Source of the DNA: a virus
DNA: 55,931 nt
Virus record (IMG/VR): IMGVR_UViG_3300031918_000032
Location: 1-55,931 of that record
Reading direction: 5' to 3' (one strand)
The notes beneath the pieces were generated by a model. The model saw only the letters and a program-made list of their open reading frames with translations. It searched no databases and was not told where the DNA came from. Each line of letters opens with the position of its first letter. The first letter of the stretch is position 1. This document shows positions 1 through 55,931 of the stretch, piece after piece. The translations under genes were made by a program, and so were the position numbers.

Positions 1-127
1 CAACGGCTACGGCAACGGCAACGGCTACGGCAACGGCAACGACAACGGCTACAGCTACGGCAACGGCTACGGCAACGGCTACGGCAACGGCAACGGCAAC
101 GACAACGGCAACGGCAACGGCTACGGC
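1..127 (+). repeat. GGC(T/A)AC hexamer array, left end of window
   Basis: Continuation of the array at 55764-55931. It contains two GAC and one AGC variant codons in place of GGC. The array is far more GC-rich than the surrounding sequence. Confidence 0.9.
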
Positions 128-133
128 TTTTAA
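2..133 (+). CDS. GYGN-repeat protein, C-terminal part (5' end lies across the contig ends)
   Basis: This is the open end of a Gly-Tyr/Gly-Asn repeat protein, 43 codons followed by TAA; the last residues are Gly-Phe. Its beginning is at 55713 at the other end of the window. Nearly every Gly is GGC, every Tyr TAC and every Asn AAC, so the DNA is a GGC(T/A)AC hexamer array. The rare deviations (Asp GAC, Ser AGC) are single G-to-A changes of the Gly codon. A strong terminator follows 16 bases after the stop. Function is unknown. The composition suggests a disordered, prion-like or structural filament protein, which is inference only. Confidence 0.75.
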   Translation, partial: NGYGNGNGYGNGNDNGYSYGNGYGNGYGNGNGNDNGNGNGYGF

Positions 134-149
134 TTACTACAAATTTTTT

Positions 150-184
150 AAAAGGCCATTACTTAATTGTAATGGCCTTTTTTA
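150..184 (+). terminator. Intrinsic terminator after the GYGN gene
   Basis: A perfect 13-bp stem (AAAAGGCCATTAC with its complement) closes a 6-nt loop and is followed by a run of T. It ends the plus-strand operon that starts near 55.37 kb. Confidence 0.9.
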
Positions 185-255: not shown

Positions 256-263
256 TATATTTG
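256..263 (+). promoter_or_regulatory. Bacteroidota-type -7 element (TATATTTG)
   Basis: It matches TAnnTTTG and sits about 60 bases before the ATG at 322. No clear TTG element lies 19-20 bases upstream, so it is weaker than the other promoters in this window. It would put the ATG at 244 upstream of the transcript start, which favours the start at 322. Confidence 0.45.
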
Positions 264-321
264 CATACTTAAATATATTTCAGTATCTTTGATTCATAGA
301 AACAAACAAATAATAAACGCC

Positions 322-34351: not shown

Positions 34352-34489
34352 TTATCGATTCGGGCTACACTTAAGGCATAAATATTCACCAGTAGGTAAC
34401 GAATAATCACTACCCCAAACTTGCAATATTATTACAAATTGTTTTCCACATTGGCAAGTATAAGGGAGTGATATTACGGTGTATTTCAT
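34352..34489 (-). CDS. Small zinc-ribbon-like protein (45 aa)
   Basis: Starts MKYTVISLPYTCQCGKQFVI; later GEYLCLKCSPNR. The CxC ... CxxC pattern suggests a metal ribbon. Its start shares a base with the stop of the helicase-methyltransferase gene. Confidence 0.6.
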   Translation of the reverse strand: MKYTVISLPYTCQCGKQFVIILQVWGSDYSLPTGEYLCLKCSPNR

Positions 34490-36684
34490 TAGAATAATTT
34501 CAACTGCCCTTTTTCTTCCATCGCAGCCGTATGATTGCGCTTATTCAATTCAAAGTAACTTTCTTTAAGCTCTATTGAAATAGATTTACGTCCCATCTTC
34601 AATGCCTGGTAGCCTTCTGATCCAATACCGCCGAATGGACTGAATACTGTTTCGCCTTCGTTGGAGTATAGTAATATAATACGCTCAATGGTATCAAGCT
34701 GTAAAGGGCAAATATGTTTTTCATCTTCATTTGCCCGACCTTCGCGATAGTTAAGGGTACGCGAATAATCGATGTCATACCATACCGGCGAAGCAATTTT
34801 TTGCCACAAATCAACGGGTATATGGGTATTAGTTATCGGTACTTCATTATCTCCGGCGTTACGGAAAAACAAAATGTAATCCGGAATGCCTACGCGCGAC
34901 ATTGAACTGTCTTTCTTAACTTGCTTGTGAAGTAATCCTAGTGCTTTGGTACGTTGCATCTCAATAACCGGGTCTTTCCAAATGGTTGCGCGGCTATGGT
35001 AAATAAATCCGCAATCTTGAAACCATTTAACCAACATGCCTGAAAAATCTCTTAACCCAATATATCCTTCTTTGCCTTTTTGGATTGGCAAATCCATGCA
35101 ATGAACCGCGCATATTCTGCCAGGTTTCAAGATCCTGGCAAGTTCAGGTATTAAGAATTTGAAATGTTGCTCGAATTGATCGTAATTAAGCGAATTACCC
35201 ATATCTTCCACGTGGTTTGAATATGTGTATAATTCTGAGAATGGAGGCGAAAATACGACCAAATCGGCTTCGTTTTTTTTTAACTCTTTTGATTTCTGGA
35301 CACAATCACCATTCATCAAATGGTACGTGTCGTTTTTAATATCGGTTGATTCCATTGAAAAATTAGTTATTAAGTTGTTAATATTTTTGTTAACCGCCTT
35401 AGTCATCTCAAGTTGCATATTTCTAAATGACGCATGTTTATCTTTCTGAATTTTCAAGACATTTATCATTCTGTCGGTGGAAATCATCCAACATGTGACC
35501 TTTCTTTTTTGCCCAAATCGCCAACTTCTACGCATTGCCTGGTATGATTTTTCAAAACTAAAGTCTATAGAATTAAAAATCTGATAGCAACAATTTTGAT
35601 AATTCATTCCTTGGCTGGCAATAGATTCTTTTGTGATTAGTATTTTAAAGTCACCATGCGCGAACCCCAAAAGATCGGTTTCTTTTTTCTCATTAGAATC
35701 GGAACCCTGAACATTTCGACAATCAAACCCAAGTAATTTAAGATGATTGTAAATGTTCTTTGCCTCTTCATTTTGCTTTGTCCAAATTATTATTGACTCA
35801 GCGAATCCAATGCTTTTTACGATCTCGGTTGTTTGCCAGATACGCTCTTTTTCTGTTTCGCGAAGACTTGAATTGTAATCGGTTGCATTTACAGCTAAAC
35901 CAGAAAACAACATCCCTTCTGGTAGTTCTGTTTTTACCTGCTTTTCGATTATTTCAAGTTCTGGCAAATCGAATCCTGTCATATCGAATCCTATATCCCG
36001 CGGGTGAGAATACATAATCGCCCACGTGCTTACAAATTCGTAAAATTTACTTACAGAATGACCTTTTAACCTCCATTTTTGAGTCTCTCCGGCATCGTGG
36101 ACAAAGAACATAGCTAGCATTTCAGTGAAGCTCATAACGTCCAAAAATTCGGAATGATTACCTAATTCCATTGGGTCGTTAGGGGATGGAGTAGCGGAAA
36201 AACAAAACTTATACGGAGTAGTTTTGAAAGTATCGATAAGTAATGTTCTGTATTTCCCGGTTTCATTCTTTAAAATAGAGCTTTCATCCAAAATTATACA
36301 CCCATACTTAGAACAATCAATATTTTCGACTTGCTCATAATTGGCTATTTGAATTAAGCTCGTATGGTTGTTAATTATTGCGCGTTCGACCATATACCCA
36401 AACTCAACACCTTTCTCAATTGTCTGGCCGGTTACTGCCAACGGTGCCAATATTAACGATGGTTTACCGGTATGTTTTGATACTTGATCGGCAATATCTA
36501 ATTGCATAGGAGTTTTACCGGTTCCTGTATCGCCAAAAATAGCGTACTTACCAGCCTTCAATGCTCGTTTATTGACAAACTTTTGAAATTCGAAAAGCTT
36601 TGGGTTTAATTGTGATTCGTCAATATCGAACCCGGATAAGATTACTTGCTTTTCTTTTTGCTTTAAAAAATCTACATACTCCAT
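34489..36684 (-). CDS. Helicase-DNA methyltransferase fusion
   Basis: A 731-residue protein. Residues 1-430 form an SF2 (SNF2-like) helicase: GDTGTGKTPMQLDIA (Walker A, about 51-65), IILDESS, SATPSPNDP and a C-lobe with ITKESIASQGMNYQNC. From about 450 comes a methyltransferase: VVFSPPFSELY (about 476-486, catalytic SPPF in place of DPPY) and a SAM site FSPFGGIGSEG (about 681-691). The order puts it among beta-class N4/N6 enzymes. Likely modifies phage DNA or translocates and modifies; the specificity is unknown. The 5' end is preceded by a kissing-loop RNA and promoter (36701-36791). Confidence 0.8.
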   Translation of the reverse strand: MEYVDFLKQKEKQVILSGFDIDESQLNPKLFEFQKFVNKRALKAGKYAIFGDTGTGKTPMQLDIADQVSKHTGKPSLILAPLAVTGQTIEKGVEFGYMVERAIINNHTSLIQIANYEQVENIDCSKYGCIILDESSILKNETGKYRTLLIDTFKTTPYKFCFSATPSPNDPMELGNHSEFLDVMSFTEMLAMFFVHDAGETQKWRLKGHSVSKFYEFVSTWAIMYSHPRDIGFDMTGFDLPELEIIEKQVKTELPEGMLFSGLAVNATDYNSSLRETEKERIWQTTEIVKSIGFAESIIIWTKQNEEAKNIYNHLKLLGFDCRNVQGSDSNEKKETDLLGFAHGDFKILITKESIASQGMNYQNCCYQIFNSIDFSFEKSYQAMRRSWRFGQKRKVTCWMISTDRMINVLKIQKDKHASFRNMQLEMTKAVNKNINNLITNFSMESTDIKNDTYHLMNGDCVQKSKELKKNEADLVVFSPPFSELYTYSNHVEDMGNSLNYDQFEQHFKFLIPELARILKPGRICAVHCMDLPIQKGKEGYIGLRDFSGMLVKWFQDCGFIYHSRATIWKDPVIEMQRTKALGLLHKQVKKDSSMSRVGIPDYILFFRNAGDNEVPITNTHIPVDLWQKIASPVWYDIDYSRTLNYREGRANEDEKHICPLQLDTIERIILLYSNEGETVFSPFGGIGSEGYQALKMGRKSISIELKESYFELNKRNHTAAMEEKGQLKLF

Positions 36685-55332: not shown

Positions 55333-55364
55333 TTTGTACGCTAAATAATATTACAGTACATTTG
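55333..55364 (+). promoter_or_regulatory. Plus-strand Bacteroidota promoter for the GYGN operon
   Basis: TTTG (55333-55336), 20-nt spacer, TACATTTG (55357-55364), 35 bases before the ATG at 55399. Confidence 0.8.
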
Positions 55365-55398
55365 TGCAATAATTATAAACAAATTTAATACTCATATT

Positions 55399-55725
55399 AT
55401 GGAAACAGAAATCGACAAGATTATTATCAAAGGAATTACTTACGTTCCTGAATCATCCGTTAAAAAAGAATTTGACGGAGATGTTAAAATTGTAGTGCTT
55501 CAGCGCGGTTGGATATACATAGGTGTATTCGAGAGAACTGGCAATGATTGTAAATTGCATAATGCTTACAATATCCGTTCGTGGGGTACAACTAAAGGAT
55601 TACCCGAATTAGTTCATGGCCCTACTAGCTCAACTAAACTGGACAAATGTGAAGGTACTGTTGAGTTCGATTGGTTAACCGTCATACATACTATTACTGT
55701 TAATAAAGACAAATGGAAGCTTTAA
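55399..55725 (+). CDS. WGTTKGL-motif protein (DUF6948-like), partner of the GYGN gene
   Basis: A 108-residue beta-rich protein. VLQRGWIYIGVFERTGNDCK, NAYNIRSWGTTKGLPELVHG, then PTSSTKLDKC. I recall this motif order from a widespread small family in phages and plasmids (Pfam name DUF6948, to be checked), and I recall short Gly-rich proteins beside some members. Its 3' end overlaps the GYGN gene by 13 nt, so they are coupled. Function unknown; no catalytic residues are evident. Confidence 0.7.
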   Translation: METEIDKIIIKGITYVPESSVKKEFDGDVKIVVLQRGWIYIGVFERTGNDCKLHNAYNIRSWGTTKGLPELVHGPTSSTKLDKCEGTVEFDWLTVIHTITVNKDKWKL

Positions 55726-55931
55726 GAATAGCGGCTAATTTCGAAGATAGCCAAAATACTCACGGCTACGGCTACGGCTACGGCAACGGCAACGGCTACG
55801 GCAACAGCTACGGCAACGGCTACGGCAACGGCAACGGCTACGGCTACGGCAACGGCTACGGCAACGGCTACGGCTACGGCTACGGCTACGGCAACGGCTA
55901 CGGCAACGGCAACGGCTACGGCAACGGCAAA
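55713..55931 (+). CDS. GYGN-repeat protein, N-terminal part
   Basis: The reading frame starts MEALRIAANFEDSQNTH and then runs as Gly-Tyr/Gly-Asn dipeptides to the end of the window. The first 17 residues are non-repetitive. The start lies inside the end of the preceding gene (13-nt overlap), so the two are probably translationally coupled and driven by the promoter at 55333-55364. The final codon reads AAA where the pattern expects AAC, and joining it to base 1 shifts the frame, so the array is not fully assembled. At least 116 codons are visible in the two halves. All-GGC glycine codons are out of line with the AT-rich codon use of the other genes. Confidence 0.75.
   Translation, partial: MEALRIAANFEDSQNTHGYGYGYGNGNGYGNSYGNGYGNGNGYGYGNGYGNGYGYGYGYGNGYGNGNGYGNGK
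55764..55931 (+). repeat. GGC(T/A)AC hexamer array, right end of window
   Basis: A tandem hexamer array in coding frame, with T or A at one position as nearly the only variation. It continues at 1-127. Because it reaches both window ends, its true length cannot be read here. Confidence 0.9.

Follow-up and report, generated by a model that had tools for sequence, protein, structure and literature searches.

The 3' end of a viral contig raises the question whether a small protein gene and the gene overlapping it, which consists almost only of Gly-Tyr and Gly-Asn dipeptides, belong together, and what such a pair may do for a phage. The contig, here called the window, is the whole stretch of 55,931 nt that was analysed. 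It is a complete IMG/VR record and represents a 55.9-kb phage with a Mu-like portal, a DUF2586 sheath and a tape measure. The window also encodes, at 34489–36684, a large protein in which an SNF2/helicase-like N-terminus is joined to an N6/N4 DNA methylase domain. As set out below, the two genes look like one functional unit, a conserved two-part system.

The gene pair in the window

All elements described by an earlier, sequence-only reading of the locus are present: a promoter, the WGTTKGL protein (gene 1), a 13-nt overlap with the start of gene 2 inside gene 1, a GY/GN frame continuing over the contig ends and a terminator (Table 1). The gene 1 ORF includes NAYNIRSWGTTKGL, and that of gene 2 reads MEALRIAANFEDSQNTHGYGYGYGNGNG... 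up to the contig end. Bacteroidota promoters follow the consensus TTTG-N19-21-TAnnTTTG, and a pattern scan found 10 such sites in the window compared with 1.7 expected by shuffling. As the following gene is served by a promoter of its own, the pair is its own transcription unit.

Table 1. Features of the two-gene unit and its surroundings (window positions).
Feature	Position	Strand	Evidence
Bacteroidota-type promoter, TTTG-N20-TACATTTG	55333..55364	+	Pattern scan; first ATG 34 nt downstream
Gene 1, DUF6948-like small protein, 108 aa, WGTTKGL motif, predicted Sm/LSm-like fold	55399..55725	+	Pfam, AF2, Foldseek, homologues
Gene 2, (Gly-X)n gene, 5' part: leader MEALRIAANFEDSQNTH, then GY/GN dipeptides	55713..55931	+	ORF reading
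39-nt repeat of window 1-39, probable overlap of contig ends	55892..55930	+	Sequence identity
(Gly-X)n gene, 3' part, frame unchanged, ending ...GNGNGYGF and stop	1..133	+	ORF reading
Intrinsic terminator, hairpin and T tract, closing the two-gene unit	150..181	+	dG -19.1 kcal/mol, z -5.3
Next Bacteroidota-type promoter, serving the following gene	260..291	+	Pattern scan

When the window ends are joined, the frame closes to a (Gly-X)n protein of 103 aa with 20 [G/S]Y[G/S] motifs. The identity of the ends over 39 nt implies a circular or circularly permuted genome; inside random simulated arrays, the chance of such an overlap is about 2%. Circular closure of the array is likely but not proven. 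Synteny with relatives gave no support for it, as they have the pair and almost no neighbouring gene in common with the window. Other IMG/VR contigs also often start or stop within a Gly-X array (L003, L015, L025, L030-L032, L059, L110 and others). The repeat breaks short-read assemblies, so that some records labelled linear may belong to circular phages.

Conserved pairing and coupling of the two genes

According to the sequence-only reading, other phages should also have the small protein next to a Gly-rich dipeptide gene, as a conserved pair. A homologue search with tabulation of the downstream genes, the check proposed at the time, bears this out, with a co-occurrence far above that in control windows. 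A (Gly-X)n gene is located ≤500 nt downstream of the DUF6948 homologue in 253 of 269 loci, but in only 2 of 4812 control windows; the homologues were fetched by protein similarity and the control windows drawn from the same DNA. Composition shuffles yielded 0 arrays. Searching with the small protein alone, regardless of the repeat, gave 50 viral loci (set a), and the repeat gene follows immediately in almost all of them; it is missing at L052, where the match is partial and covers 36 aa. For the reverse test, contigs were picked solely by the DNA pattern (GGCNAC)5 and scanned with an HMM iterated from set a. This revealed 87 DUF6948-like ORFs among 14,812 six-frame ORFs, 80 of them with a same-strand array downstream (79 of these at 2–416 nt). 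For the divergent subfamilies A3–A5 the seeds, unlike those of set a, were taken from array-bearing contigs; the 240 loci have the array downstream in 221 cases and only upstream in one, while six are cut by the contig end and 12 are without an intact array. About 10 of these 12 keep degenerate Gly-rich repeats as judged by eye.

It is practically certain that the gene pair is conserved. The pairing is obligate and was found in several hundred unrelated bacterial viruses, with hosts among the Bacteroidota, Pseudomonadota, Chlorobiota and Actinomycetota. Cultured phages with the pair are Rheinheimera phage barba, Pectobacterium phage Koroua and relatives, Iodobacter phage PhiPLPE, Vibrio phage IKEMa6-1, Chlorobiaceae phage CV-1-33 and Eggerthella phage PMBT5. 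In the complete genomes of barba, Koroua, PhiPLPE, PMBT5 and CV-1-33 the arrays are intact and internal, which excludes the assembly artefact that the sequence-only reading had considered. Among the papers searched, none mentions DUF6948 or such a gene pair, and the two genes are not taken up in those on Rheinheimera phages. The sequence-only reading missed four points described below: that gene 1 has a predicted Sm/LSm-like fold, that the pair is often set among replication and recombination genes, that the arrays are hypervariable and that the codon set changes from phage to phage.

In L070, L076, L114, L129 and L158 the whole pair, the DUF6948 gene or the array gene is present twice in tandem, which indicates that the unit duplicates. 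A record of Neisseria gonorrhoeae (L425, 2.17 Mb), chromosome-sized yet filed as a plasmid, has a DUF6948-like match at three genome sites, presumably prophages, with a Gly-X gene downstream at the one site read.

The start of the array gene overlaps or touches the stop of gene 1 in 36/44, 66/68, 71/76 and 69/76 loci of four subfamilies. In subfamily A3, the array ATG is at offset -10 in 59 of 68 loci, and the codon for a Trp conserved at the C terminus contributes to it. Among 395 DUF6948 ORFs, a single natural fusion of gene 1 with gene 2 was found (L068); two other ORFs flagged as fusions merely read through the repeat upstream. The leader preceding the repeat is conserved in relatives with synonymous changes (seven synonymous and three nonsynonymous among 17 codons between the window and L003). 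Its sequence depends on the subfamily. The NFEDSQ-type motif [FGNY][ED][DEN][SNA][QHL] is present in 29 of 40 A1 leaders and in none from A3–A5, A4 leaders carry F/L-x-P-V/I, and a 'GAC' leader module of about 50 aa, 'DVLDAGACIDGV', is restricted to A5. At A5 loci (L358, L361, L378 and others) the Gly-X protein opens with this module in the form VTVxDVLDAGACxDGVxxFV..., for which there was no Pfam match above the cut-off. Subfamily specificity of the leader fits docking on its own partner. The proposal of the sequence-only reading, that the small protein may bind, cap or assemble the repeat, fits these data, with indirect support from the L068 fusion and from leader motifs that track the partner subfamily.

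Predicted fold of gene 1 and composition of the array

The gene 1 protein is at the edge of the Pfam family DUF6948 (PF22253; E 0.0013, 19.2 bits, below the gathering cut-off of 27 bits), the entry for which, as shown, is silent on a repeat partner. Within one continuous family of 98 relatives, 47 match PF22253 at E ≤ 0.01 (best 1.1e-31). The subfamilies are linked by iterated HMM, and the BFVD fold matches of gene 1 include named DUF6948 proteins. Nothing informative on the window proteins came from PADLOC, NCBIfam or PHROGs.

An AlphaFold2 model of the gene 1 protein, computed from the 98-sequence alignment, is all-beta with a pLDDT of 89. Its best PDB matches in Foldseek are Sm/LSm-like: 3by7, an Sm-like protein from a metagenome and the closest solved structure, with related chains, followed by archaeal SmAPs and Lsm1-7. 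A separate model for L117 from a divergent subfamily (pLDDT 91) has Sm/LSm chains as nearly all of its top 50 matches, with TMt up to 0.74. For both models, the Sm/LSm matches reach a probability of 1.00, but TMq is only about 0.5. The likeness to Sm, LSm and Hfq proteins thus lies in the predicted fold of two divergent subfamilies. The difference is in sequence: none of the 98 members matches an LSM/Hfq Pfam profile at E ≤ 0.01, and the Sm1/Sm2 signatures, including the Sm1 Asp/Asn, are not evident in gene 1; both points, like the low TMq, count against the mechanism proposed below. There was also no PDB sequence match at E ≤ 1. Given the missing profile support, we rate the Sm-like fold of gene 1 as probable and no higher.

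The second position of the Gly-X dipeptides is narrowly restricted. Over 7,872 dipeptides from 239 arrays, X is Tyr in 41%, Asp in 24%, Ser in 17% and Asn in 12%; His (CAC) is one transition from Tyr, yet accounts for 0.8%. With rising genome GC, Asn drops from 25% to 4% and Asp and Ser increase, Tyr remaining steady at 36–44%. The order of X is near random (YY adjacency 1335 versus 1365 ± 21). The median array protein has 94 aa and 14 [G/S]Y[G/S] motifs, as computed from 227 complete genes. One Gly codon covers more than 90% of the glycines in 201 of the 239 arrays (GGC in 169, GGG in 15, GGT in 14, GGA in 3), the third base of X is mostly C in 180 arrays and T in 27, and synonymous sites hardly vary within an array, the window having GGC-NAC throughout. 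As the codon set shifts between phages with the Gly-X pattern kept, selection acts on the protein and not on a DNA motif. The maintained feature is composition, neither order nor DNA motif. The sequence-only reading had found that almost all variation is between T and A at a single codon position; this is correct for the window array (Y/N with rare S and D) but does not extend to the relatives, where G (Asp) and TCC (Ser) are common.

The arrays are hypervariable. Rheinheimera isolates with flanks identical except for one SNP have arrays that differ by 6- and 12-nt units and by Y/N switches. Arrays of related Pectobacterium phages range from 53 to 89 aa, with near-identical DNA immediately downstream. 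Array turnover is fast, occurs by whole units and is always in frame. Judged from isolate variation alone, the gain and loss of whole 6-nt units together with Y/N-like switches is unlike the adenine-specific substitutions of a diversity-generating retroelement, where a reverse transcriptase copies them from a template repeat.

In public annotation the repeat is 'hypothetical' or, in PMBT5, an 'adsorption protein'. In CV-1-33 it is annotated in a wrong frame (MAMAMALAM), the true frame being MDGINYGYGDGDGSG; the same kind of annotation conceals a Gly-X protein at 2760-3020 of L176 and 1258-1830 of L434. Matches of arrays to TrAA12, ser_rich and Serglycin-type models were discarded as low-complexity noise, and that of Rfam isrG, an Hfq-binding RNA, to the array antisense (27.5 bits, gathering cut-off 100) as a repeat artefact. 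In the gut phages L433 (MT835900.1) and L435 (MT836871.1) and in a Monoglobus plasmid (L426), the Gly-X part of the downstream gene is no more than a short stretch, and behind it lies a folded domain (FAHGxTLxEA...WHHxLTGSC...GR...YGGDxIRK) that had no Pfam or PHROG match. A relative in Riemerella phages is annotated 'ribonuclease inhibitor'. The domain may hint at the attachment partner of the tail.

Genomic setting and possible function

The pair is often located among genes for replication and recombination. In a PHROG scan of 123 neighbouring proteins (A1, A3, A4), Erf and Sak4 annealing proteins, RecE, DnaB and primase lead, and DNA polymerase, SSB and UvsX were also found; RusA is among the neighbours. 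The cultured genomes agree with this setting. None of the other window genes is conserved beside the pair, which indicates that the pair moves as a cassette.

We tentatively favour, at somewhat less than an even chance, an Sm-like scaffold with a separate FUS-like tail that would undergo multivalent self-association near phage nucleic acid. In this mechanism gene 1, from the DUF6948 superfamily, would supply a small beta-barrel of Sm/LSm(Hfq)-like fold. Gene 2, whose translation is coupled to that of gene 1, would provide the subfamily-specific leader and a disordered Gly-X copolymer in which Tyr takes about 40% of the X positions and Asp, Ser and Asn the others, with the leader docking the product onto the Sm-like protein. 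Its many G-Y-G 'stickers' might then make the complex associate with itself and form, on the nucleic acid of the phage, a condensate or gel-like assembly that acts early in infection and often beside replication/recombination genes. We infer from the data above that the two proteins may bind each other and that the pair may oligomerize, bind nucleic acid and condense.

Motifs of the [G/S]Y[G/S] class drive assembly of the FUS low-complexity domain. The array resembles this domain in its dense GYG motifs spaced by polar residues and differs from it in having no Gln, in the strict alternation of Gly and in being a phage protein. The proposed system would also resemble an Sm or Hfq protein whose tail is Gly-rich and of low complexity, the difference being that core and tail would be separate co-translated subunits. 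The nearest functional precedent is Acinetobacter Hfq, where an Sm core has a disordered GGFGGQ-repeat tail which tunes RNA binding and the length of which matters (PMC11617691). Acinetobacter Hfq is, however, one polypeptide with Phe/Gln repeats, whereas the phage system consists of two overlapping genes with Tyr/Asp/Asn/Ser dipeptides.

Some observations count against the scaffold-and-tail mechanism. Basic residues make up less than 1% of the array, with almost no Arg or Lys, so that nucleic-acid contact, if any, must come from gene 1. The window pair stands alone among genes of unknown function with no replication genes alongside, and in some phages (L132, L134, L434, L433, L435) the array is upstream of DUF6948 or fused to an extra folded domain. 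More doubtful is the broader reading of a widespread phage system in which the Sm-like scaffold would recruit a hypervariable Gly-Tyr/Gly-polar random copolymer into a condensate around replicating or recombining DNA or RNA and which, taken jointly, would correspond in bacterial viruses to Sm/LSm granules, with a FUS-like tail that can be detached.

A role in counter-defence or host takeover, with the polymer or the Sm-like protein sequestering or inhibiting a host or defence protein and hypervariability reflecting an arms race, is unlikely. The small cassette has unrelated neighbours from phage to phage, arrays differ between near-identical isolates, and PADLOC defence models gave no match at E ≤ 0.1, so that the pair is not itself a known defence system. 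The narrow chemical composition and near-random order are, however, unlike a surface evolving towards a specific target, and the pairing is almost invariant across phyla, often within replication/recombination modules. Many Bacteroidota are without Hfq, which argues against simple poisoning of the host protein. Strict Gly-X alternation is silk-like, and a structural material, in which gene 1 would chaperone or cap chains stacked as beta-sheet or gel for use in virion, adhesion or lysis, would agree with the label of the Eggerthella copy. That label rests on a database name only, the common setting is not a structural one and the leaders have, by eye, neither secretion signal nor membrane segment; we regard this explanation as improbable. 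The chances of a toxin–antitoxin-like pair, with a harmful, aggregation-prone polymer neutralized by the coupled small protein, are slimmer still: two small overlapping genes in obligate pairing would suit it, but the repeat gene comes second, its position and number of copies are not constant (L070, L114 and L129 have extra arrays) and such extreme variability is unusual for a toxin.

The protein might instead be incidental and the repeat work as DNA or RNA (a repeat bound by a protein, a decoy, or an element for packaging or regulation). The near-constant synonymous sites within one array, as in the window, speak for this, but the protein pattern is kept by phages that use GGG, GGT, GGA or GGC with NNC or NAT, changes in the leader are mainly synonymous and His is rare. 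The differences in codon set largely refute this as a general explanation, and we give it very little credence. Free gain and loss of 6-nt units would be expected from a neutral or selfish slippage repeat without function; against this stand the obligate partner, the gene overlap, the conserved leader and an X composition restricted over 239 distinct arrays. On composition, overlap and pairing we reject neutral slippage, with hardly any probability left to it.

A pair that is obligate in hundreds of phages, whose hosts belong to four or more bacterial phyla, must have an important role, although both genes are annotated as 'hypothetical' and at times in a wrong frame or under a misleading name. 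The arrays amount to a library of Gly-Tyr copolymers from nature, hundreds in number and selected for composition, not sequence, which would allow direct tests of sticker–spacer ideas on low-complexity proteins in a genetically simple phage. Should condensation be confirmed, the pair would represent such a system in minimal form, with two phage genes.
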